The translations under genes and the position numbers were made by a program. A DNA stretch of 36,120 bases from Lentisphaerota bacterium (GTDB taxonomy: Bacteria > Verrucomicrobiota > Kiritimatiellia > PWTM01): the NCBI GenBank assembly GCA_016873715.1, contig VGWF01000039.1, forward strand, positions 1-36,120. Direction: 5' to 3'. The notes beneath the pieces are model-generated. The model had not been told where the DNA came from and did no database searches. It saw only the letters and a list, made by a program, of their open reading frames with translations. Shown here piece by piece: positions 23,765 to 35,900 of this stretch; positions within the stretch are counted from its first letter, which is position 1, and every line of letters begins with the position of its first letter.

Positions 23765-23873
23765 AAAAGTCCTCTCGAATCCCGGCGCCGGCGGGTCCAC
23801 GATACCGGTGGCGGGGGTCCGGGTGGCCGGCCGTGTCCCGGTCGATGGGCGGCGAACGAAAGGGCGAAGTGCC

Positions 23874-24815
23874 ATGACGACGATCTCCCGCCGGTCCTTC
23901 CTGCGCTACTGCACGGCGTCGGCCGCGGTCCTCGGGCTGGACCCGTTGCGGCTGGGGCTCCTGAACGATGCGATGGCGAATCCGTCCGCGCCCTCGGTCA
24001 TCTGGCTGCACGGCAGTTCGTGCACGGGGTGCTCGGTCTCGCTTCTCAACCGGATCACCGCGACAGGCGACACCATCGCACAGGTTCTCGTCAACGACAT
24101 CAACCTCATCTTCCACGCGACTCTGATGGCTTCGGCCGGCGACCCCGCGGTGGCGGAACTGCTGCGCGTGCGGAAATCGGGCAACTTCGTCCTCGTCTGC
24201 GAGGGCGGCGTCCCGACGGCCTTCGGGGGGCGATGCTGCATCACGTACGGCTTCGGCGGCGGCGAGATCACCTACATGCAGGCGGTGCAGGAGCTTGCCG
24301 CGAAGGCGGCGGCGATCGTTTGCGCGGGGACCTGCGCGAGCTTCGGCGGCATTCCGCGGTCCGGATCGAACCCGACCGGCGTCGTCAGCGTCCGCGAGCT
24401 GACGGGCCGCCCGACGATCAACATCTCCGGCTGTCCCGCGAACCCGGACTGGATGGTCTGGGCGATCGTGCAGCTGCTTACCGGGACGCCGGTGACGCTG
24501 GACGCGAACGGGCGCCCCGTCGATCTGTACGCGAAGGATCTCGCCGGGGCGGCGGCGCCGGAGCTGATCCACGACAAGTGCCCGCGGAATCCGGCGCTCA
24601 CCGGGGCCCCGCTGGCGGCGGGGTTCGGCGAAGACGGGCACTGCCTGGAGTTGCTCGGCTGCCGCGGGCCCCACACCCGGGCGCGATGCGAGGCGTGCTG
24701 GAACGGCGTGCCCGGGCAGGGCACCTGGTGCATCGGGGTCAACGCGCCGTGCCACGGATGCACCGAACCGGGCTTTCCCGGTCCGCAACCCTTCTACGAA
24801 CCGTTCAGCGGCTGA
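23874..24815 (+). CDS. [NiFe]-hydrogenase small subunit, Tat-exported
   Basis: Electron-transfer subunit of a periplasmic (group 1-like) hydrogenase, 313 residues. The twin-arginine signal SRRSFLRYCTASAAVLGL (RR at 6-7) means it is exported folded together with the large subunit. The proximal cluster ligands are seen in GSSCTGC (Cys50, Cys53), with CAGTCASFGG and SGCPANPDW. The distal and medial cluster region has IHDKC, CRGPHTRARCEAC and TWCIGVNAPCHGC. There is no C-terminal membrane anchor; the protein ends PFYEPFSG, as in soluble Desulfovibrio-type enzymes. The ATG has AAGGG about 11 bases upstream. It is first in an operon with the large subunit and protease. The subgroup is not resolved. 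Confidence 0.95.
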   Translation: MTTISRRSFLRYCTASAAVLGLDPLRLGLLNDAMANPSAPSVIWLHGSSCTGCSVSLLNRITATGDTIAQVLVNDINLIFHATLMASAGDPAVAELLRVRKSGNFVLVCEGGVPTAFGGRCCITYGFGGGEITYMQAVQELAAKAAAIVCAGTCASFGGIPRSGSNPTGVVSVRELTGRPTINISGCPANPDWMVWAIVQLLTGTPVTLDANGRPVDLYAKDLAGAAAPELIHDKCPRNPALTGAPLAAGFGEDGHCLELLGCRGPHTRARCEACWNGVPGQGTWCIGVNAPCHGCTEPGFPGPQPFYEPFSG

Positions 24816-24835
24816 ACCGAAGCGGAGGAACCCCC

Positions 24836-26302
24836 ATGCCCGTCATCACCGCCGCGATCGACCCCGTCACCCGGATCGAGGGCCACCTCAAGGTGGAGGT
24901 CGACGTCGACACCGTCGACGGTGTGCAGCAGGTTGTCGATGCGCGCTCGGTCGGCACGCTGTTCCGCGGATTCGAGATCGTTCTGCAGGGGCGCGATCCG
25001 CGGGACGCGCCGATCATCACGTCGCGGATCTGCGGCGTCTGCCCGACGGCGCACTCGATGGCCGCCGCGCTGCTGCTCGACAGCGTCTACGGCACGAATC
25101 CGCCCGAGGCATCGCGCCTGCTGCGGAACCTGGTCCACGGGGCGTGCTTCCTCGAGTCGGACATCCTCCACTTCTACCTTCTCTGCCTGCCCGACTACAT
25201 CCGCGGGCCGTCGATGGCGCCCTGGCTGCCCGGCCTCGAACTGGGCCGGCGGCTGGATCCCGCGGCCGAGTCGCGGCTCGTCGCGGGCTACCTCAAGGCG
25301 ATCGACCTCCGGCGCAAGTGCCATGAGATGGGCGCGATCTACGGCGGCAAGCTGCCCCACACCCCGGGCTTCATCGCCGGCGGCTTCACGGCGGTCTCGT
25401 CCTCGGCGAACAAGACCGCGTTCGGAAGCCTGCTCGCGGAGATCCTCGAGTTCATCGAGCGGACCTACATCCCGGACGTGGAGCTTCTCGGCTCCCTGTA
25501 CGGCGAGTACTTCCGCATCGGGCGCGGGCCGGGGAACCTGCTCTCGTTCGGGGTCTTCGAGGATGGGGCCGGCGGCCATCTCCTCGCGCGCGGCCGCACG
25601 GTGAACGGCACGGCGTCCCCGCTGCCGGTGGACGTGGCGCAGATCACCGAGCAGGTGACGCACTCCTGGTACGACGATGCGACGAACGATCTCGCGCCTG
25701 CGGGCGGATCGACGGTCCCCCTCAGCCCGAAGCCGGACGCCTACTCGTGGCTCAAGGCGCCGCGGTACGGCGGCGCGGTCTACGAGTGCGGCCCGCTCTC
25801 GCGCATGGCGGTGGCGGGGCATTACCGGCGCGGCATCTCGGTCATGGACCGGCACCTGGCCCGGGCGCACGAGGCGCTGCGGATTGCGCAGGCGATGCAG
25901 GGGTGGCTCACGGCGCTGCCGACGGGCACGGGGGCTTTCGATCCCTTCGACCCGGGCATGATTGCGAATGTCGACACCCTGGGCCTGACCGAGGCCCCGC
26001 GGGGCGCCCTCGGGCACTGGATCCACATGGACGGCACGGCGATCGGACGCTACCAGGTGATCACGCCGACGTGCTGGAACTGCTCGCCGCGGGACACCGC
26101 GGGGCAGCCGGGCGCGATGGAAGCGGCGTTGATCGGGACGCCCGTCGCGCGGGCGGATCATCCGGTCGAGGTGTTGCGCGTGGTCCACTCGTTCGATCCG
26201 TGCCTCGACTGCGCCACGCACGTGATGCGGCCCGGGGAGGAGGCGCGCGTGATCCCGTTGTGGCGTCCGCCGGCCGCGCGGGCGGGCAGGGGACGGGCAT
26301 GA
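24836..26302 (+). CDS. [NiFe]-hydrogenase large (catalytic) subunit
   Basis: Catalytic subunit of 488 residues, compact compared with the about 550-600 usual for group 1 enzymes. The nickel-iron site ligands are complete: RICGVC (Cys66, Cys69; His73 follows) near the start and DPCLDC (Cys456, Cys459) near the end. The 26-residue tail after His462 is the peptide normally removed by the maturation protease, whose gene follows. The start has a strong GGAGG seven bases upstream, 20 bp after the small subunit. There is no signal peptide, so it is co-exported with the small subunit. The hyp genes for cofactor assembly are not in the window. Confidence 0.95.
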   Translation: MPVITAAIDPVTRIEGHLKVEVDVDTVDGVQQVVDARSVGTLFRGFEIVLQGRDPRDAPIITSRICGVCPTAHSMAAALLLDSVYGTNPPEASRLLRNLVHGACFLESDILHFYLLCLPDYIRGPSMAPWLPGLELGRRLDPAAESRLVAGYLKAIDLRRKCHEMGAIYGGKLPHTPGFIAGGFTAVSSSANKTAFGSLLAEILEFIERTYIPDVELLGSLYGEYFRIGRGPGNLLSFGVFEDGAGGHLLARGRTVNGTASPLPVDVAQITEQVTHSWYDDATNDLAPAGGSTVPLSPKPDAYSWLKAPRYGGAVYECGPLSRMAVAGHYRRGISVMDRHLARAHEALRIAQAMQGWLTALPTGTGAFDPFDPGMIANVDTLGLTEAPRGALGHWIHMDGTAIGRYQVITPTCWNCSPRDTAGQPGAMEAALIGTPVARADHPVEVLRVVHSFDPCLDCATHVMRPGEEARVIPLWRPPAARAGRGRA

Positions 26303-26799
26303 ATGCCTCTCCCGGCGCGCGTGTGGTTGTGGTCGGCCTGGGCAACTGGCTCATGCGCGACGACGGCGTCGGCGTTCACGCCGTGCGCGAGCTCGCCGCC
26401 GACCCGCCGCCGGGCGCCGCCGTGATCGAGGCCGGCACCGCGGTGCTCGACGCGCTTCCCTGGCTCGAGTCGGCGGAGCGCGTGCTGGCCGTCGACGCCC
26501 TCGCGGCCGGCGGGACGCCGGGCACGGTCTACGCGATGGACGGCCGCGACGCGCGGATCGCCGGGCGGCCGGCATCGCTGCACTCGCTCGACCTCCCGAC
26601 CGTGCTGGCCTGCTTCGGCCGCGGGAACGGCCCCCGCGAGGTCCGCGTGGTCGGCGTCGAGCCGGCCTCGGTCGGATACGGAACCGGTCTTTCGGCCGAG
26701 GTCCGTGACGCGCTGCCGGCGGTGACGCGGGAGGTCCGGCGCGCGGTGGCGGCGTGGATGGCGGAAACGCCGGGGGATCCGGCCTGGGACGCGACGTGA
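26299..26799 (+). CDS. Hydrogenase maturation protease (M52 family)
   Basis: Endopeptidase that removes the C-terminal tail of the large subunit after nickel insertion. The 166 residues contain GLGNWLMRDDGVGV; the nickel-probing residues of the HybD/HycI family correspond to Asp22, Asp66 (in AVDA) and His95 (in LHSLDLP). The start ATG overlaps the large-subunit stop (ATGA), so translation is coupled. It presumably serves the hydrogenase encoded just upstream. Confidence 0.93.
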   Translation: MNASPGARVVVVGLGNWLMRDDGVGVHAVRELAADPPPGAAVIEAGTAVLDALPWLESAERVLAVDALAAGGTPGTVYAMDGRDARIAGRPASLHSLDLPTVLACFGRGNGPREVRVVGVEPASVGYGTGLSAEVRDALPAVTREVRRAVAAWMAETPGDPAWDAT

Positions 26800-26822
26800 G
26801 ACCTCGAACCGGGGAGACGACC

Positions 26823-29800
26823 ATGCGATATCCGGGATGGCGGTTCGGGCTTGTGGCGGCGGCGATCCTCGCCCTGCGTCCGGCCCCGGCGCCGGCGCAG
26901 ACCGACGGCATCATGACCTGCCAGGTCACGACCGTTGCGTCGGGTCAGACCTACGACCCGAGGAACGTGCTCGCGGTCTGGATCGCCGACTCGACGAACG
27001 GTTTCGTCAAGACGGTGATGAAGTACTCCGCTTCGCGGACGGCCTACCTCTACAAGTGGATCGCGAACTCGGCCCGGTCGACGAATACGGACACGATCTC
27101 CGGCGCCACGCTGTCCTCCCACGGGGCCAGGACCGTCCGGTGGAACGGGCGCGACAAGAACGGGACCCTCGTTCCGGACGGGAACTACTGGGTCCGCATG
27201 GAGTTCACCGGCGCGAACGCGCAGGGCCCGGTCTCGACCAACTACGTACGGTTCACCAAGGGATCGTCGTCCGTCTCGACGAACTTCACCAACCTGGCGA
27301 ACTTCCAGTCGCTGTCGCTGACCTGGACGCCGGTGACGGTGTCGCACGATGTCGGCGTGGTGCGCATCGGCCTTCCGCCGATCATCAACACCGACAGCAC
27401 CGTGCAGGTTCCCGTGGTCACGACGAACAAGACGACGACCGCGGAGACCTTCGTGCTGTCGCTGAGCAACCGGACCGACGGCGTCCTGATCGGACAGACC
27501 ACGGTGACCGCCCTGGCCGGCAACGCATCGCGGACCAACACGTTCGTCTGGGACACGGCCGGCCTGCTGCCCGGCGCGTACACGCTCGCCGCGTATGCCG
27601 CGGCCATCGCGGGCGAAACTGTCACCGCCGACAATCTCCTGACCACCGGCACCACCGCCCGCGTGGCGTTTCACGATGTCGCCGTCGGGTCCTTCACCGC
27701 GCCCGCGTTGATCGTGCCCGGGGCGACCTCGAACCTGACGGTACTGGCGACCAACCGCGGCGACTTCGTGGAGAGCTTCCTCGTGGCCGTCACCGACCGG
27801 ACCGACGGCGTGTCCATCGGCCTGCGGACGATCGGGAACCTCCCCGCCTATGCCGGGACCAACGTGGCGTTTGCGTGGGCCACGGCGGGCCGGTCGCAGG
27901 GTTACCACGCGGTCGTGGCAACCGTGGGGGTGGTCACGGACGACACCGACGCCCTGAACAACACGAACGCCCGGACCGTGGCGATCGCCTCGGGATTGTC
28001 CACGGGCGTCGTGTCGGCCACCGGGGGCGCATGGCGGTACCACGACCTCGGCATCGATCTTCACGGCGGGCCGTGGACCACGGCCGACTACTACGACGGG
28101 CACTGGGCGTCGGGCTCCGCGCGGTTCGGCTTTGGCGACCCCGGCATGGTGACGACCGTCAAGACGGGGAACCTCTGCTATTACTTCCGGCGCGACTTCT
28201 TCCTCGACGTGGTTCCGCTTGCGATGAGCGCGCGGCTGCTGCGCGATGACGGCGCCGTCGTCTACATCAACGGCCAGGAGGCCTTCCGGGCCAACATGGA
28301 CGCGCTGGAGGATCCCGCGTACTCCAATGTGGCCCTCGCGGCCGTCAGCGGCACGGCGGAGACGAACTGGTTCCCGTTCGCCGTCGACCCGGGACTTCTG
28401 CGGCCCGGCCGCAACGTGCTGGCGGTGGAACTGCACCAGAACCAGGCGTCGAGCAGCGACGTGGCGATGGACCTCGAACTGAGCGCCGTGACGCCCAGCC
28501 TGTCGCTTTCGCGCGACGTGGCCGTCGAGTCGATCCGGGTGCCCGGCAGCGCGACCGCGGGGGACCGGCTGGCGGTCGGCGTGCGCGTGCGCAACGCCGG
28601 CCAGGCCGTCGAGACCTTCACCGTCACATTGACCGACACGAACACCGGGGTCTCGGCCGGCGCCCAGGCGGTCGCGTCGCTGGAGCCGGGCGGATGGCGG
28701 GACCTTGCCTTCGCGTGGGACACGCGGGGCGTCGCGCCGGGCGCGCACGTGCTTCGGGCCCTGGCGGGGCCGGTCGCGGGGGAGACCAACACGGCGGACA
28801 ACGCGGCGACGGCGCCCGCCCCGATCGCCGGCTCGGGGGTGTCCCTGGCGAGGCTCGACGCCGCGGGCTCGATCGGTGGCTTCTGCGGCGCGGTCGTGGT
28901 GCAGGGAGCGCGGGCGTACGCGGCGGAGGGAGCTTCGCTGGTCGCCTACGACATCGGGGTTCCGTCGTCGCCGGTGCGGCTCGGGAGGCTGAGGCTGAAC
29001 GGAGTCATCGAGGGGCTGGCGGCCAACGCATCGCACGTCTTCGCGGCGTCGGGCGCATCGGGCGTGCACGTGGTCGACGCGGGTACGCCGTCGGCGATGT
29101 CGCTGCTCGCCACGTGGGACGGCGCCGGCCATTCGCGAGGCCTGGCGCTGGACGGCACGCGCCTCTATGTGGCCGACGGCGTGGGCGGTCTCCGCATCCT
29201 GGACGTGAGCAGCCCGGCCTCGCCGTCGCTTCTCGGCGGCCTGGCGACGACGGGACCGGCTCGCGCGCTGGCCGTGAACGGCACGACCGTCTATGTCGTG
29301 GACCAGCACGACGGCCTGCTCATCGTCGACGCCGGTTCGCCGTCGTCGCCCACGGTCATCGGTGTGAGCGACCGGGTCACCGCAGGCGAGGGCCTTGCGC
29401 TGTCGGGCTCCCACGCGATCGTCGCGGGGGCGGCAGGACTCCTGAGCGTCATCAGTGTCGCGTCGCCGTCCGCGCCGGTGCTCGTGACGAATGTTCCGCT
29501 GGCCGGTGCGGCGCGTGCGCTGGCGGTGTCCGGCGGGACGGCCTACGTCCCGCTCGGCGCCTCCGGACTGGCCGTGGTCAACGTGGCGACGCCCGCGGCC
29601 CCCGCGGTGCTGGCGACTCCGTCGACCGCCGGCGAGGCATCGGGCGTGGCGGTTTCGGGCACGACCGCCTTCGTTGCAGATGGGTTCGGCGGATTGCGCG
29701 TGCTCAGCGTGACCGCGCCGGCCAGCCCGGCTCTCGTGGCCGTGACGGGCGACGGCCTGAGGGCACGCGGGTCCGCGGCGTCGACGAACGGGCATCTCTA

Positions 29801-31016
29801 CGTCGCGGCGGGTGAGAACGGCGTCGACATCTGGTGCGTGACCAACCCCGCGGGCGCGTTCCGCGCCGGACGCTTCGCCGGCGCTGCGTCGGCGGTCGAT
29901 GTCGCGGTGCACGGCGCGCGCCTGTACGTCGCCGACGGCGCGCACGGACTGCGCGTGGCGGAGTTGTCGTCGCCCACGCAGGCCGTCTTGCGGGCGACGT
30001 GGACGAATGCGTCGGTCGGCGCGCTGGTCTCGGTCGCCGGCGATGCCGCGCGGGCCGTCGTCTCCGACGGGCGCCGCATCGCCTGCATCGATGCGGCCGT
30101 CCCTGCATCGCCCGTGCTGGCCGGCCTCGCCGACGGTGGCGGGGCCGATGCGTCGGCGGTCATTCACCAGGTTGCGATCGCCGGGAACGCCGCGGTGGCG
30201 GCCTCGGGCGAGGCGGGTCTGCGCGTGTACAACCTCCCGGGGATGTCGCTGGCGGGGTCGCTCGGACTGCCCGGTCCCGCGCTGGGCGTCGCGGTCAGCG
30301 GGACGACGGCCTGCGTCGCGTGCGGAACGGGCGGGTGGGCGGTGGTGGATGTCGCCGCGCCGTCGTCCCCGTCGCTGGTCGGCGTGGCTCACGGCGCCCA
30401 GGGTGCGGTCGGCGCCGTCGCCTCCGGCGGGCGTCTCGTCCATGTGGCGGGCCTGGGTCCCGCCGCGTCCTCGCTCGACATGTCCGTTCCGCTGACGCCC
30501 GTCGATAAGCGCGCCTTCGCGCCGTTGACCCGTGTGCTCCGCCTGTCCGCCCGCGGAGTTGTCGCCTTCGCCTCCGAGGACGACGCCGGCGTGGCCATCC
30601 TCGATGCCGTGCCGGACGACCATAATCTGAACGGGCTTTCGGACTCGTTCGACCGGCAGATTGTGGACGCCGACCCGGACGACGCCATCGCATCGCCCGA
30701 CGACGTCCGCCCGGAGGACGATTTCGATGGAGACGGTGCGACGAACCGCCAGGAACTCGTGGCCGGTACCGACGCGACGGACCCCGGCTCGGTCTTCATG
30801 TGCCCGGCGGCCCCCGGCGTCCTTGAGGGGAACCGGTTCGTGGTCCGCTGGACGGGCGTCGCCGGCAAGACCTACGCGGTGCGATGCTCGACGAACCTGC
30901 TGGCCGGCGCGGGATTCCAGGTGATCCAGGGGTCGATTCCCGGCGCCGGAGGCGTGAACGCCTACACGGCGACGGTGAGCGCCGCGAGTTGCTTCTTCAT
31001 GGTGGAGGTCGAGTAG
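26823..31016 (+). CDS. Giant secreted multidomain protein: DUF2271-like, CARDB-like, LVIVD beta-propeller
   Basis: The 1397 residues have a signal peptide ending at about APAQ (25). Domains in order: a DUF2271-like region (about 27-146, with TYDPRNVLAVWIAD, SGATLSSHG and GNYWVRMEF); two CARDB/Ig-like repeats (about 172-392); a jelly-roll-like region (about 400-556, DDGAVVYINGQEAFR); a third CARDB-like repeat (about 560-672); and about 14 LVIVD-type repeats of 40-45 residues (about 676-1266, such as LYVADGVGGLRILDVSSPASP), expected to form a beta-propeller. Then comes an Asp-rich motif DFDGDGATNRQELVAGTD typical of calcium-binding thrombospondin-3 or EF-hand-like repeats. The end is a short 'CSTNLL...FFMVEVE' domain seen in Verrucomicrobiota-type secreted proteins. 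The ATG has GGGGAG seven bases upstream and lies 23 bp after the hydrogenase protease, so it is probably in the same operon. It has no heme motif. Its function is unknown. Confidence 0.88.
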   Translation: MRYPGWRFGLVAAAILALRPAPAPAQTDGIMTCQVTTVASGQTYDPRNVLAVWIADSTNGFVKTVMKYSASRTAYLYKWIANSARSTNTDTISGATLSSHGARTVRWNGRDKNGTLVPDGNYWVRMEFTGANAQGPVSTNYVRFTKGSSSVSTNFTNLANFQSLSLTWTPVTVSHDVGVVRIGLPPIINTDSTVQVPVVTTNKTTTAETFVLSLSNRTDGVLIGQTTVTALAGNASRTNTFVWDTAGLLPGAYTLAAYAAAIAGETVTADNLLTTGTTARVAFHDVAVGSFTAPALIVPGATSNLTVLATNRGDFVESFLVAVTDRTDGVSIGLRTIGNLPAYAGTNVAFAWATAGRSQGYHAVVATVGVVTDDTDALNNTNARTVAIASGLSTGVVSATGGAWRYHDLGIDLHGGPWTTADYYDGHWASGSARFGFGDPGMVTTVKTGNLCYYFRRDFFLDVVPLAMSARLLRDDGAVVYINGQEAFRANMDALEDPAYSNVALAAVSGTAETNWFPFAVDPGLLRPGRNVLAVELHQNQASSSDVAMDLELSAVTPSLSLSRDVAVESIRVPGSATAGDRLAVGVRVRNAGQAVETFTVTLTDTNTGVSAGAQAVASLEPGGWRDLAFAWDTRGVAPGAHVLRALAGPVAGETNTADNAATAPAPIAGSGVSLARLDAAGSIGGFCGAVVVQGARAYAAEGASLVAYDIGVPSSPVRLGRLRLNGVIEGLAANASHVFAASGASGVHVVDAGTPSAMSLLATWDGAGHSRGLALDGTRLYVADGVGGLRILDVSSPASPSLLGGLATTGPARALAVNGTTVYVVDQHDGLLIVDAGSPSSPTVIGVSDRVTAGEGLALSGSHAIVAGAAGLLSVISVASPSAPVLVTNVPLAGAARALAVSGGTAYVPLGASGLAVVNVATPAAPAVLATPSTAGEASGVAVSGTTAFVADGFGGLRVLSVTAPASPALVAVTGDGLRARGSAASTNGHLYVAAGENGVDIWCVTNPAGAFRAGRFAGAASAVDVAVHGARLYVADGAHGLRVAELSSPTQAVLRATWTNASVGALVSVAGDAARAVVSDGRRIACIDAAVPASPVLAGLADGGGADASAVIHQVAIAGNAAVAASGEAGLRVYNLPGMSLAGSLGLPGPALGVAVSGTTACVACGTGGWAVVDVAAPSSPSLVGVAHGAQGAVGAVASGGRLVHVAGLGPAASSLDMSVPLTPVDKRAFAPLTRVLRLSARGVVAFASEDDAGVAILDAVPDDHNLNGLSDSFDRQIVDADPDDAIASPDDVRPEDDFDGDGATNRQELVAGTDATDPGSVFMCPAAPGVLEGNRFVVRWTGVAGKTYAVRCSTNLLAGAGFQVIQGSIPGAGGVNAYTATVSAASCFFMVEVE

Positions 31017-31233: not shown

Positions 31234-31878
31234 ATGAAAAACGGATATCGTCTGGGGTTCGTTGGCTTGCTTGCGTCGGGGACGCTGGTCCGGGCCGCGG
31301 AGCCGGCGCCGGTGGCGGTGGATCCGCTGATGGGGCCGGTGGCGGAGATCCGCTACGAGGTGACCGCGATCGAGCACGGCACGGGGGACAAGGCGGCCGC
31401 CTTCGACCGGCTCGTCGGCCGGGCCGACGCCCTGGCGAAGCAGTTTCCGAAACGGCCGGAGCCCCTGATCTGGAAGGCGATCGCCCTGTCGGCCTCGGCC
31501 AAGCACAAGGGGCTGAGCGCGCTCTCGTCGGTGAAGGAGGCCCGGGCCCTCCTGGAGGCGACGCTGGCGATGGACGAGGCCGTGGCGGGGCCGTTCGCGC
31601 ACAACGCGCTGGGCATACTCTTCCACAAGGTTCCCGGCTGGCCGATCTCGTACGGCGACGACCGGAAGGCCGAGGCTCACTTCCGAAAGGCCGTTGCCGC
31701 CTTGTCGTGCCTGGACACCCACTACCGCTACGGCGAGTTCCTCATGGACGAGGGGCGCAGGGACGAGGCGCGCAAGCACCTCGAGCAGGCTCTCGCGTTT
31801 CCCGACCGGCCCGGCCACAGGGAGGATGCAATGAAGAAGGAGGAGATCCGGGCGCTTCTCGCGCGCCTCAGGACGTAG
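31234..31878 (+). CDS. Exported TPR-like helical protein at head of PKS operon
   Basis: The 214 residues have a short signal sequence (MKNGYRLGFVGLLASGTLVRA, cleavage near AAEPA) and a helical body with tetratricopeptide-like pairs (KAEAHFRKAVAALSCLDTHYRYGEFLMDEGR and ARKHLEQALAFPD in separate stretches). It is probably periplasmic. The ATG at 31234 has AAAGG five bases upstream; an ATG seven codons earlier is the alternative. The type III polyketide synthase starts three bases after its stop, so it belongs to that operon, where it might act in lipid handling or as a scaffold. I cannot assign a specific function. Confidence 0.75.
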   Translation: MKNGYRLGFVGLLASGTLVRAAEPAPVAVDPLMGPVAEIRYEVTAIEHGTGDKAAAFDRLVGRADALAKQFPKRPEPLIWKAIALSASAKHKGLSALSSVKEARALLEATLAMDEAVAGPFAHNALGILFHKVPGWPISYGDDRKAEAHFRKAVAALSCLDTHYRYGEFLMDEGRRDEARKHLEQALAFPDRPGHREDAMKKEEIRALLARLRT

Positions 31879-31881
31879 TCC

Positions 31882-32931
31882 ATGGATCCCCGCATCGTCG
31901 CCGTTCGCACCCTGCTGCCCGACCACGCGTACACGGCCCGGGAGGCCATGGATGCCTATGACCGCTGGGTCTCCGGCCGCCCGCGCCCGTTTCGCGAGAA
32001 GGCCCGCCGGATCTTCGAGGCCGCCGCGATCGACGAGAAGCACACCGTGGCGCCGGCGGACGTGATCTTCAGCCGCCGCACGCTCGAGGAGACCAACCGA
32101 CTGTATTCCGAGAAGGCCGTCGAACTGGGCGGACGCCTCCTCGCCGGGACGCTGGAGCAGGCGGGATGGGCCCCGGCGGACCTCGATCTCCTCGTCACGA
32201 CCTCCTGCACCGGGCACATGATCCCGTCGCTCGACGCCCACCTCGTCAACCGCCTCGGCCTGCGGAGCGACATCCGTCGCATGCCGATCACGCATATCGG
32301 CTGCGCCGGCGGGGCCGCGGGCATGATCTACGCCCTTGATTTCCTGCGCGCCTATCCCGGCCGCCGCGCGGCCCTGCTCTCGGTGGAGTTCCCGAGCAAC
32401 ACCATCCAGCTCGATGACTTCTCGTGGGACAACATCATCGGAACCGCGATCTTCGGCGACGGGCTGGGTTGCGTGCTGATGGGCGACGGTCCGTCGTCCG
32501 CTCCGCTCATCCGCGACGCCGAGATGCGGCAGGTTCCCGACTCGACGGACATCCTCGGCTACCGGCTCACCGGAACCGGATTCCTGATGAACCTCGACCG
32601 GAGCGTGCCGCAGGTGATCGAGGACCATTTCGACGCGATCGTAGGCCCCTTCCTCCGGCGCAACGGGACGGATATCGAGAGCCTCGCCCGGGTTCTCGTG
32701 CACCCGGGCGGCGTGAAGATCCTCGACAAGCTCGAGGCGATCCTCGCGCCCCGCGGGCAGCGGCTCGACCTGTCGCGCGCCGTGATGAAACGCCACGGCA
32801 ACATGTCCAGCGGAACGATCCATTTCATCCTCGAAGCCTACCTGCGGGCGCCGGTCCGCCCGGGCCGCGCGCTCGTGATGAGCTACGGCCCCGGGTTCAC
32901 CGCTCACCAGCTTCTGCTGGAATGGGAGTGA
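31882..32931 (+). CDS. Type III polyketide synthase (chalcone/stilbene synthase family)
   Basis: Homodimeric condensing enzyme that extends an acyl-CoA starter with malonyl-CoA units and cyclises the product to a resorcinol, pyrone or related ring. The 349 residues are the normal length. The catalytic triad is complete: Cys141 in HIGCAGGAAG, His274 in VLVHPGG and Asn307 in RHGNMSSGT. Bacterial relatives make alkylresorcinols and alkylpyrones. The start ATG follows the TPR gene by three bases. The next three genes encode a flavodoxin-fold oxidoreductase, a C-methyltransferase and an FAD hydroxylase, matching the tailoring set of phenolic-lipid loci such as srsABC. The starter unit cannot be read from sequence alone. 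Confidence 0.92.
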   Translation: MDPRIVAVRTLLPDHAYTAREAMDAYDRWVSGRPRPFREKARRIFEAAAIDEKHTVAPADVIFSRRTLEETNRLYSEKAVELGGRLLAGTLEQAGWAPADLDLLVTTSCTGHMIPSLDAHLVNRLGLRSDIRRMPITHIGCAGGAAGMIYALDFLRAYPGRRAALLSVEFPSNTIQLDDFSWDNIIGTAIFGDGLGCVLMGDGPSSAPLIRDAEMRQVPDSTDILGYRLTGTGFLMNLDRSVPQVIEDHFDAIVGPFLRRNGTDIESLARVLVHPGGVKILDKLEAILAPRGQRLDLSRAVMKRHGNMSSGTIHFILEAYLRAPVRPGRALVMSYGPGFTAHQLLLEWE

Positions 32932-32933
32932 CC

Positions 32934-33521
32934 ATGCCACCGACCGAACGCATCGTGCTGATCGACGGACACCCGGACGCCGGCAGTTTCTGCGCCGTCC
33001 TGGCACAAGCCTACGTGGAGGGAGCCCGGGAGGCCTCGCGCGACATTGCGACGATCGTCGTCCGCGACCTGCTCTTCGACCCGATCCTCCGGTTCGGCTA
33101 CCGCCAGGAGCAGCCGCTCGAGCCGGACCTGCTGGCCGCGCAGGAGACGATCCGCGCGGCGACGCACGTGGTCTGGGTCGCCCCGATGTGGTGGGGCGGC
33201 CTGCCCGGGCTGCTGAAGGGCTTCCTGGACCGCACGTTCATCCGCGGATTCTCCCACCGCTTCGACCCGGCCCGGCGGATCCCCGTCAAGCTGCTGACCG
33301 GCCGGTCCGCGACGCTGATCTACACGCAGAGCAGCCCGTGGCTCTACACGCTCCTCGTCCACGGGGATCACTTCTGGCGGATGGTGCGCAAGTCGGTCTT
33401 CGAGTTCGTCGGGTTCGCGCCGGCGCGCCGCCGTTGCTACGCGAGCATCAAGGTCTGCGGGCCCGCCGCGCGGGCGCTTATGATCGGGGATGCCCGTCGC
33501 CTCGGGCGGGAGGGATTCTGA
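32934..33521 (+). CDS. Flavodoxin-fold NAD(P)H quinone oxidoreductase-like protein
   Basis: The 195 residues belong to the Flavodoxin_2 (NQO1/MdaB/KefF-like) family. The N-terminal VLIDGHPDAGSFC provides FMN-phosphate contacts, and APMWWGGLPGLLKGFLDRTF is the hallmark flavin-binding stretch. These FMN or FAD enzymes reduce quinones by two electrons. The ATG lies two bases after the PKS stop with GGGAG five bases upstream. Its place between PKS and methyltransferase suggests it reduces a quinone made by the pathway (inference). Confidence 0.85.
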   Translation: MPPTERIVLIDGHPDAGSFCAVLAQAYVEGAREASRDIATIVVRDLLFDPILRFGYRQEQPLEPDLLAAQETIRAATHVVWVAPMWWGGLPGLLKGFLDRTFIRGFSHRFDPARRIPVKLLTGRSATLIYTQSSPWLYTLLVHGDHFWRMVRKSVFEFVGFAPARRRCYASIKVCGPAARALMIGDARRLGREGF

Positions 33522-33522
33522 C

Positions 33523-34317
33523 ATGGCCGCCCACGACAACGAGGCCAAGCTGCGGTTGATCCGCGACGTCGGGTTCGACCGCCACTTCAAGCCCGGCACC
33601 TGGGCCGAGTACAACCGGCAGTTCTTCGACGGGCTGGCGAAGAAGTACGACGCGACGAACGCGCTCCACAGCTTCGGGACGAAGCCCGCGATCGACCGCG
33701 CCGCCTGCGCCCGGATCCCGCTGCTGCCGGGCGCCCGCGTGCTCGATGTCTGCGCCGGCAGCGGCGACATCAGCATCGAGATCGCCCGGACGCATCCCGA
33801 CGCGCGGATCGTCGCGGTGGACGCCTCGGCGCCGATGCTCGAAGTGGCGCGCCGCAAGGCCGCGGGGCTCGCGAACATCGAGTTCATGACCGGCGACGCC
33901 CTCCGGCTGCCGTTCGGCGACGCCGCGTTCGACGCGGCCGTGATCAGCTTCGGCCTGCGGAACCTCTCGGATCTCCAGGCGGGGCTGCGGGAGATGATGC
34001 GCGTCGTCCGTCCCGGCGGCCACATCTCGAACATCGACCAGGGCAAGCCGCCGAACCCGCTGTTCCGCGCGCTCTACCACGCCTACTTCCATCACATCGC
34101 CCCGGTGATCGGGAAACTGGTCTTCCACCGCGGCGAGTTCAACTCGTTCCGCTACCTGCCGGAGTCGAACCGGTACTTCCCGGACCAGGCCGGCATGGCG
34201 GCGATCTTCCGGGAACTGGGGCTGGAGGACTACCGGGCCTACGACTACTGGCTCGGGGCCGTGGCCCAGCAGGTGGCGCGCGTGCCCGTCCGCGGCGCGG
34301 GGTCGGGGCGCGCATGA
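33523..34317 (+). CDS. UbiE/MenG-like SAM-dependent C-methyltransferase
   Basis: The 264 residues form a class I methyltransferase with motif I VLDVCAGSGDI (73-83), followed by AVDASAPMLEVARRK and the UbiE-type FDAAVISFGLRNLSD and MMRVVRPGG. UbiE/MenG enzymes methylate the ring of quinone precursors. The N-terminal about 30 residues and the C-terminal FHHIAPVIGKL-RYLPESNRYFP resemble that group. The ATG is one base after the previous stop with GGAGG nine bases upstream. It could be a true menaquinone methyltransferase, but its place in a PKS operon argues for a phenolic-lipid ring as substrate. Confidence 0.85.
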   Translation: MAAHDNEAKLRLIRDVGFDRHFKPGTWAEYNRQFFDGLAKKYDATNALHSFGTKPAIDRAACARIPLLPGARVLDVCAGSGDISIEIARTHPDARIVAVDASAPMLEVARRKAAGLANIEFMTGDALRLPFGDAAFDAAVISFGLRNLSDLQAGLREMMRVVRPGGHISNIDQGKPPNPLFRALYHAYFHHIAPVIGKLVFHRGEFNSFRYLPESNRYFPDQAGMAAIFRELGLEDYRAYDYWLGAVAQQVARVPVRGAGSGRA

Positions 34318-35900
34318 ACGGGCCCGGCGCGAGCCGGTGGGACGTGCTGGTCGCCGGCGCGGGGCCGGTCGGTTTGACGCTGGCCAACCTGCTGGGGATC
34401 CACGGCGTCCGGACGCTGGTCATCGAGCGCCTCGGCGAACCGCTGGTCATGCCGCGGGCGGTCGGGCTCGACGACGAGTGCCTGCGCATCTGGCAGTCCT
34501 GCGGACTGGTGGACGCGATCCTGCCCTACGTGCACCAGGGGGACGAGGGCGACACCATCTTCACCTACCGCTCCGCCCGCGGCCGCCCCCTCTTCCGCAT
34601 GCGGCAGCACGGCCGACCCTACGGCTACTCCCGGGGGCTGGTCTTCCTCCAGCACAAGGTGGAGGAGGTCCTGTCCGGGGGCGTGCGGCGCTTCCCGCAC
34701 GTCCAGATCCGGCGCGGATGGACGGTCGGGGCCGTGGAGGCGAAGGACGGCGCGGCACTCCTCTCGGGGCGCGACGCGGACGGCATGCCCTGGAGCGAGT
34801 CCGCGGCCTTCGCGGTCGGTTGCGACGGCGGCCGCAGCACGGTGCGTTCCGCCCTGGGCATCCCGATGGACGGGCGGACCTACCCGACGCCGTGGCTGAT
34901 CGTGGACGTCCATTCGGCGACCGCGGAGCGCGAGAACCGGCGCGAGGGCGTCGAGGTCTGGTGCGACGCGCGGCGGCCGACGGCGACGATGCAACTTCCC
35001 CGCGGCTTCCGCCGGTGGGAGTTCCTGCTTCGCCGGGGCGAGGATCCGCGGACGTTCCTCGACGATGCGCGCATCCTCGAACTGATGGCCGCGCACAAGC
35101 CCGTCGAGGACTACCGCATCGTCCGCAAGCTCACCGTCGCATACAGCTCGCGCATCGCGCGGCGCTACCGGTCCGGCCCGGTGTTCCTGGCCGGCGACGC
35201 CTGCCACGTCACACCGCCGTTCGCGGGGCAGGGGCTGGCCACGGGGCTGCGCGACGCGGCGAACCTGGCGTGGAAGCTCGCCTTCGTCGTCCGCCACGGC
35301 CTGCGCGCCGATCTGCTGGACACCTACGAGGAGGAGCGACGGCCCCACCAGCTCCGCATGCTCGCCCTGGCGCGGCGGATGGGGATCGCGATGATGCCCG
35401 GCACCCGGCTTCACGAGGCGGTCAGTCATGCGCTCTTCCGTCTGACCGAGTCGGCGGGACCGCTGAAGCGTCTGTCGGAAATCCGCGGCGGGCACATCGC
35501 GCCGGTGTACCGCCGCGGCTTCCTGCATCCCGGGGGTGCGGCGGGGACCTACCTGCTTCAGCCGCGAATGCCGGACGGGCGTCTCCTGGACGACCATCTC
35601 GGCCCGGGGTTCGCGATCGTGCGCGTCGGCCCGGGGGCCGCGGACCTGATCGGACCGGCCGACCTCGCCCGCTGGCGGGGGCTCGGCGCGCGGGTCGTCG
35701 ACCTTCCGTCGCACGACGAGGGCACGCCCGCTCTCACCGATCCCGCCCCGTCGCGACCGGGACCGCGGGTGCTGATCGTGCGGCCGGACCGCTTCATCTG
35801 CGCGGACGTGACCCCGGTGGACGCCGGGGCGCCGCCTGTCCCCGCGGGATCGTCCGCAGGCCCCCGTGACCTCCGCGGGGCGGGGTCAGGGAGGCAGTAG
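34314..35900 (+). CDS. FAD-dependent aromatic-ring monooxygenase (PHBH/MhpA-like)
   Basis: Class A flavoprotein hydroxylase, 528 residues. FAD motif GAGPVG (15-20), DG motif VGCDGGRSTVRSALG (about 168) and GD motif VFLAGDACHVTPPFAGQG (about 290), then a C-terminal thioredoxin-like region. Relatives such as MhpA and phenol hydroxylases add oxygen to activated phenols. The start overlaps the methyltransferase stop (ATGA). In this operon the likely substrate is the methylated resorcinol, which would be converted to a hydroquinone or quinone. The last 15 bases overlap the end of the convergent gene. The C-terminal about 30 residues are low-complexity (Pro/Gly/Arg). Confidence 0.9.
   Translation: MNGPGASRWDVLVAGAGPVGLTLANLLGIHGVRTLVIERLGEPLVMPRAVGLDDECLRIWQSCGLVDAILPYVHQGDEGDTIFTYRSARGRPLFRMRQHGRPYGYSRGLVFLQHKVEEVLSGGVRRFPHVQIRRGWTVGAVEAKDGAALLSGRDADGMPWSESAAFAVGCDGGRSTVRSALGIPMDGRTYPTPWLIVDVHSATAERENRREGVEVWCDARRPTATMQLPRGFRRWEFLLRRGEDPRTFLDDARILELMAAHKPVEDYRIVRKLTVAYSSRIARRYRSGPVFLAGDACHVTPPFAGQGLATGLRDAANLAWKLAFVVRHGLRADLLDTYEEERRPHQLRMLALARRMGIAMMPGTRLHEAVSHALFRLTESAGPLKRLSEIRGGHIAPVYRRGFLHPGGAAGTYLLQPRMPDGRLLDDHLGPGFAIVRVGPGAADLIGPADLARWRGLGARVVDLPSHDEGTPALTDPAPSRPGPRVLIVRPDRFICADVTPVDAGAPPVPAGSSAGPRDLRGAGSGRQ

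Follow-up and report, generated by a model that had tools for sequence, protein, structure and literature searches.

Polyketide quinones (PkQ) are known electron carriers in Mycobacterium (M. smegmatis) and Streptomyces, and are made by a polyketide synthase (PKS), a methyltransferase (MT) and an oxidoreductase (PMC9927152). For the M. smegmatis counterpart of the srs operon, O-methylation of the phenol is reported (PMC5916927). The planctomycetal alkylresorcinol operon encodes a probable C-methyltransferase (the G. maris enzyme) and has, like cyanobacterial hidABC, the defining gene order methyltransferase-oxidoreductase-PKS (PMC10896814). Here, a five-gene operon containing a type III PKS was analyzed in a 36,120-nucleotide stretch of DNA (hereafter the window), which is an entire contig (VGWF01000039.1, assembly GCA_016873715.1) of a Lentisphaerota bacterium of the class Kiritimatiellia. 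A sequence-only reading of the window had predicted, by transfer from Streptomyces srsABC, an operon for a methylated alkyl-(hydro)quinone. The present analysis makes it reasonably probable that the operon produces a methylated polyketide (hydro)quinone, and places its PKS in a small clade with an unusual active site.

Gene content of the operon

The operon lies on the + strand between positions 31234 and 35900 in the order TPR-PKS-NQO-MT-FMO. The first gene (31234..31878) encodes an exported TPR protein of 214 aa, which scored over the TPR_14 cut-off and whose signal peptide was judged by eye only. It is followed by a type III PKS of 349 aa (31882..32931) with Pfam Chal_sti_synt N and C domains and a PDB match to Pks11, an NQO-like quinone reductase of 195 aa with an FMN flavodoxin fold (32934..33521; Flavodoxin_2, 1.9e-29), a cluster-specific UbiE-family C-methyltransferase of 264 aa (33523..34317; ubiE/COQ5, 7.9e-51), and a group-A FAD aromatic hydroxylase (FMO) of 528 aa resembling MhpA and polyketide hydroxylases (34314..35900; FAD_binding_3, 8.5e-62). 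Gaps of 3, 2 and 1 bp separate TPR from PKS, PKS from NQO and NQO from MT, respectively, and MT and FMO overlap by 4 bp (ATGA). The tight packing described from the letters was thus borne out to the base, and the five gene families named there were confirmed by Pfam and NCBIfam profile matches. All five frames showed coding periodicity, with a GC content of 0.90–0.96 at third positions versus 0.46–0.54 at second positions. Scans for promoters and terminators gave no signal above chance, and an Rfam scan no match above chance. The contig ends at 36120, shortly past the operon, and an SGNH-hydrolase-like reading frame enters from that end on the opposite strand; since this frame points back from the contig end, the operon probably ends at 35900.

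Other features of the window were recorded. Positions 23808-26799, some 5 kb ahead of the operon on its upstream side, encode a Tat-exported periplasmic [NiFe] hydrogenase of the NiFeSe-like group together with a maturation protease. The small subunit scored 187 bits with TIGR00391, over the cut-off, and the large subunit 515 bits with NF033181, with a NiFeSe hydrogenase as best PDB match (2.7e-115) and Cys, not Sec, in the motif DPCLDCATH. An exported protein of 1420 aa (26754-31016), in which LVIVD repeats are combined with CARDB and FlgD-like Ig domains, lies between hydrogenase and operon, and gyrB and gyrA are adjacent at the start of the contig (948-6039).

Active site and phylogeny of the polyketide synthase

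The PKS had been described as complete, which agrees with the finding of both domains and an intact catalytic triad (C141-H274-N307); in a residue census the triad was invariant in 119 sequences. A PDB sequence search matched the protein to Pks11 at 2.5e-52. Foldseek comparison of its AlphaFold model (pLDDT 95.7) returned Pks11 first (1.1e-39), then CylI, which is a resorcinol former, and then THN synthase. The two Chal_sti_synt domains, the Cys-His-Asn triad and the model match to Pks11 place the protein in the type III PKS superfamily.

Other residues are unlike those of most homologues. The position of ArsB Trp281, where Trp has been linked to resorcinol formation in ArsB, SrsA, Pks10 and Pks11 (PMC6274091, PMC5916927), is occupied by Tyr227 in the window PKS, whereas 95 of the 119 homologues in the census carry Trp. 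The Trp rule is not absolute, as CylI has Leu at this position and yet is a resorcinol former. Tyr was found in 14 homologues, and because some of these are mycobacterial, Tyr alone leaves the product unfixed. In addition, the window PKS has Pro171 where 111 of 119 homologues carry Cys, and Asn173 where 100 of 119 carry Leu. These three substitutions count against the preferred reading to the extent that the product could have another ring or chain.

One such product was considered in particular. Tyr227 aligns with Tyr224 of THN synthase (CHS G256), a residue that favours malonyl-CoA as starter (PMC6274091), and Cys109 aligns with the THN synthase Cys at CHS T132. Like THN synthase (RppA), a malonyl-primed enzyme could build a core of naphthalenoid or acylphloroglucinol type that would be hydroxylated and C-methylated to a naphthoquinone devoid of a long alkyl chain, and naphthoquinols are the usual substrates of UbiE/MenG enzymes. 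Against this, the remaining THN synthase features, Cys at CHS T194/T197 and Ala at S338, are replaced in the window PKS by Pro171, Thr174 and Ser309, Pks11 is closer by both sequence and fold, the Tyr shared with some mycobacterial PKSs does not define a product, and the two enzymes did not group in the tree, although the THN synthase branch is long. A naphthoquinone is, in our judgement, distinctly unlikely.

In a quick phylogenetic tree, in which the long rows of THN synthase and CylI are unreliably placed, the window PKS formed a clade of three with the enzymes of two Phycisphaerae MAGs (SH-aLRT 100), both of which also carry Tyr at the position of ArsB Trp281. This clade fell outside the actinobacterial/bacillar/proteobacterial clade holding Pks11, the actinobacterial part being as sampled, with Pks11 and without SrsA and PkqA, and it was also apart from the PKSs of the host's own class. 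Comparisons with SrsA, PkqA, ArsB and HidC are based on published papers and on Pks11. No further member of the clade was found in 388 genomes of the phylum, where the next best protein (from G034) scored 223 bits against 653 bits, and a single-sequence scan of genome contigs detected no close homologue. The host genome has one type III PKS.

Since the PKS lies outside the Pks11 clade and has Tyr227 in place of Trp and Pro171 and Asn173 in place of Cys and Leu, an alkylresorcinol product is not established. The operon does have the genes predicted for a type III polyketide (hydro)quinone pathway, but Tyr227 and the exclusion from the Pks11 clade leave 'alkyl-' unproven. Ring type and starter are not readable from the sequence; by overall similarity, a long-chain phenol would be the likeliest single answer.

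Tailoring enzymes

The MT scored 188.8 bits with TIGR01934, over its cut-off of 158.35, carrying the UbiE subfamily signature, and it keeps the UbiE core, including the SFRYLPESNRYFPDQ segment. It stayed below the cut-off of every equivalog model in NCBIfam. Because of this UbiE type, over the subfamily threshold and under those of the equivalogs, the natural prediction is that the MT would C-methylate a quinol ring. The substrate of UbiE/Coq5 enzymes is the quinol in its reduced state. The FMO contains all three group-A motifs (GxGxxG at 15, DG at 171 and GD at 294). Its best NCBIfam model is of MhpA type (409 bits, under the cut-off of 546), and its best PDB match is the polyketide hydroxylase 4k2x. 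For the NQO-like protein, the best PDB match is the NADPH quinone oxidoreductase 3lcm (6.9e-16), with NQO1 next. The added quinone reductase had been inferred to allow redox cycling, which is not necessarily its purpose: the NQO-like protein may serve redox turnover, or it could hold the intermediate as a hydroquinone for methylation.

Related clusters in other genomes

When public genomes were scanned with a PKS alignment, PKSs 48–49% identical to that of the window turned up in two Phycisphaerae MAGs. The first, a Phycisphaeraceae MAG (JAHBXE010000019.1; locus L051), contains PKS-MT-FMO in the same tight order, with identities of 49, 66 and 41%, respectively. This uncharacterised trio is the closest relative of the window operon; it is not accompanied by TPR and NQO genes, and is flanked by an MFS gene upstream and a YceI gene downstream. 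Presence of the same trio in this Planctomycetota MAG shows that PKS, MT and FMO form a real module, beyond chance, and the kept order and the 66% identity of the MTs indicate that the three enzymes act together. The second MAG (L052) weighs against the reading of the operon as a source of a methylated polyketide (hydro)quinone: it has a PKS of the same clade, but its 6.9-kb contig carries neither MT nor FMO.

Genomes of the host's own class commonly have clusters in which genes of these three types, PKS, FMO and UbiE-like MT, are neighbours, often accompanied by a DUF1295-like membrane protein, YceI or both. They differ from the window operon in that their PKSs belong to another clade and their MTs are only 25–28% identical to that of the operon. 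Such clusters were seen in seven loci (L030, L034, L040, L041, L043, L045 and L046), two of which (L034 and L040) encode an FMO preceded by a membrane domain fused to its N-terminus.

Alternatively, the operon product could be a phenolic lipid, secreted or membrane-bound, that has a structural, protective or allelopathic role and whose quinone form would be incidental, as in hierridin-type products. The MFS and YceI genes next to the trio and the exported TPR protein of the window are compatible with this, and no redox role is known for the MT-oxidoreductase-PKS operons that make planctomycetal alkylresorcinols and cyanobacterial hierridins (PMC10896814). A dedicated quinone reductase would be superfluous for a purely structural lipid, and we hold this alternative to be doubtful, if the most serious one.

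The TPR protein, which had been regarded as a new element, has homologues of 30–40% identity in 25 plasmid records. In a small sample taken from plasmid records only, TPR relatives followed genes for T_hemolysin, AMP-binding, iron redox enzyme and SDR proteins in 5/5 annotated proteobacterial contexts, and the set usually adjoined a two-component system. Because its family recurs in this conserved proteobacterial gene cluster, the protein is not new; it recurs as an accessory of a different gene set. Five loci (L164-L166, L168 and L169) showed the conserved set of T_hemolysin, AMP-binding, Haem_oxygenas_2 iron enzyme, SDR, exported TPR protein and two-component system, and a literature search on this set found no paper describing it.

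Quinone and respiratory context of the host genome

In the host genome (G000; 97.6% complete), neither MenB nor the MqnA/MqnD family (PF02621) was found, the classical menaquinone pathway being judged by the one gene MenB, and no haem-copper oxidase was found either. Cytochrome bd is encoded (C17:9218-10531), with cydAB present. The genome also contains a MenA-like UbiA protein, under all equivalog cut-offs, and a second UbiE-like MT gene, which fails the TIGR01934 cut-off. The product of the latter is 30% identical to the operon MT and 37–47% identical to MTs of the PKS clusters of the class; it may be MenG or a leftover of the class's own PKS cluster. On contig C15 (locus L049), a UbiA-family prenyltransferase gene directly follows a TatD-like hydrolase gene, a pair that by eye resembles the ebo type.

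A separate menaquinone methyltransferase had been named as a point to check, as the operon MT might be the sole MenG of the organism. Because a second UbiE-like gene is present and MenB and MqnA/D were not detected, the operon MT is probably not a menaquinone enzyme. Its capture as the host's MenG in an unrelated operon would explain why it passes TIGR01934 and the second MT does not. This is extremely improbable, given the missing MenB and MqnA/D, the scores under every equivalog cut-off, and the 66% identity to the MT of the Phycisphaeraceae cluster as against ~34–42% to annotated UbiE proteins on plasmids.

Among 58 relatives, MenB was over the cut-off in 19 genomes and cytochrome bd was present in 10, while MqnA/D gave two clear matches and one weak match. 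Type III PKS genes occurred in 13/21 genomes with a menaquinone pathway versus 6/37 without (p 0.001), and in 7/10 genomes with cytochrome bd versus 12/48 without (p 0.01). This enrichment favours a quinone product, but it is confounded by the O2 requirement of the hydroxylase itself and by the shared ancestry of the genomes. Neither menaquinone pathway was present in any of the nine genomes sampled from the host family, and two genomes, those of the host and G052, combined PKS and cytochrome bd with no menaquinone pathway. Cytochrome bd with no detected MenB or MqnA/D was seen in G000, G008 and G052.

A polyketide quinone may therefore possibly feed cytochrome bd. That the operon product does so in the host in place of menaquinone would be consistent with cydAB being present while haem-copper oxidase, MenB and MqnA/MqnD were not found, with the pattern in the family, and with the electron transport by polyketide quinones elsewhere (PMC9927152). 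It is quite improbable: G008, of the same family (68% complete), has cytochrome bd but neither such a PKS nor a menaquinone pathway; the MenA-like UbiA protein and the second UbiE-like MT would be equally compatible with DHNA or menaquinone being salvaged; a single gene stands for the classical pathway; and a sole carrier would not be expected to depend on a hydroxylase that needs O2. The stronger claim, that the polyketide quinone is the quinol donor of cytochrome bd, the sole terminal oxidase detected, and that a type III PKS is thereby the source of the main respiratory quinone outside Actinobacteria, is more improbable still.

Proposed pathway and role

The preferred reading, a methylated polyketide (hydro)quinone, draws on the exact operon and its families, the conserved PKS-MT-FMO trio, the UbiE core of the MT, the proximity of FMO and NQO-like protein to polyketide hydroxylases and quinone oxidoreductases, respectively, among solved structures, and a PKS fold nearest Pks11 and CylI, ahead of THN synthase. 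Precedents are PkQ (PMC9927152) and the planctomycetal alkylresorcinol operon (PMC10896814). Its weaker side includes the position of the PKS in a clade of its own. In the pathway that we propose, the PKS would condense an acyl-CoA starter with malonyl-CoA and cyclise the chain to a phenolic ring. Using O2 and NAD(P)H, the group-A FAD enzyme would then hydroxylate this to a 1,4-dioxygenated ring, and the UbiE-type enzyme would methylate the reduced form at a ring carbon, both steps being as expected from the enzyme families. The NQO-like protein may keep the compound as a hydroquinone, for methylation or turnover, and the exported TPR protein could, more speculatively, have an extracytoplasmic helper function, such as scaffolding the export or positioning of the product. 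A long-chain starter is the likeliest single one, which gives a long alkyl tail on the product about an even chance.

The most likely role for the product is that of a membrane-associated redox-active lipid, acting as protectant, signal or auxiliary electron carrier; a function as electron carrier in particular is unlikely. The idea of a membrane redox lipid has a precedent in PkQ of M. smegmatis and Streptomyces (PMC9927152), and is in that respect not new. With the operon, the possible routes to polyketide quinones come to include a PKS clade whose active site is unusual and which is paired with its own UbiE-type MT in two separate lineages. It also raises a testable question, namely which quinol is used by cytochrome bd in bacteria that have neither known menaquinone route.

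Comparison with known systems

Literature searches turned up no paper that directly describes a type III PKS and UbiE sharing an operon. The planctomycetal alkylresorcinol operon and cyanobacterial hidABC (hierridin) are, by description, like the window operon in combining PKS, MT and FAD oxidoreductase, and differ from it in gene order (MT-oxidoreductase-PKS versus TPR-PKS-NQO-MT-FMO). THN synthase shares with the window PKS the Tyr and the Cys aligned above, and not the other signature residues. The pkqABC and srsABC operons of Mycobacterium smegmatis and Streptomyces likewise combine a type III PKS, an MT and an oxidoreductase or hydroxylase, the latter an FAD enzyme as in the window, and a methylated quinone is expected. 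The transfer from srsABC made at the outset holds for this content of PKS, MT and hydroxylase. It does not extend to the PKS itself, which lies outside the clade of Pks11 and carries Tyr227 instead of Trp, or to methylation, for which a UbiE-type (C-) enzyme contrasts with the O-methylation of the M. smegmatis quinone route; the NQO and TPR genes are additional. Taken together, the window operon would work like the pkq/srs group, and is best called a variant of the type III PKS (hydro)quinone-type clusters.
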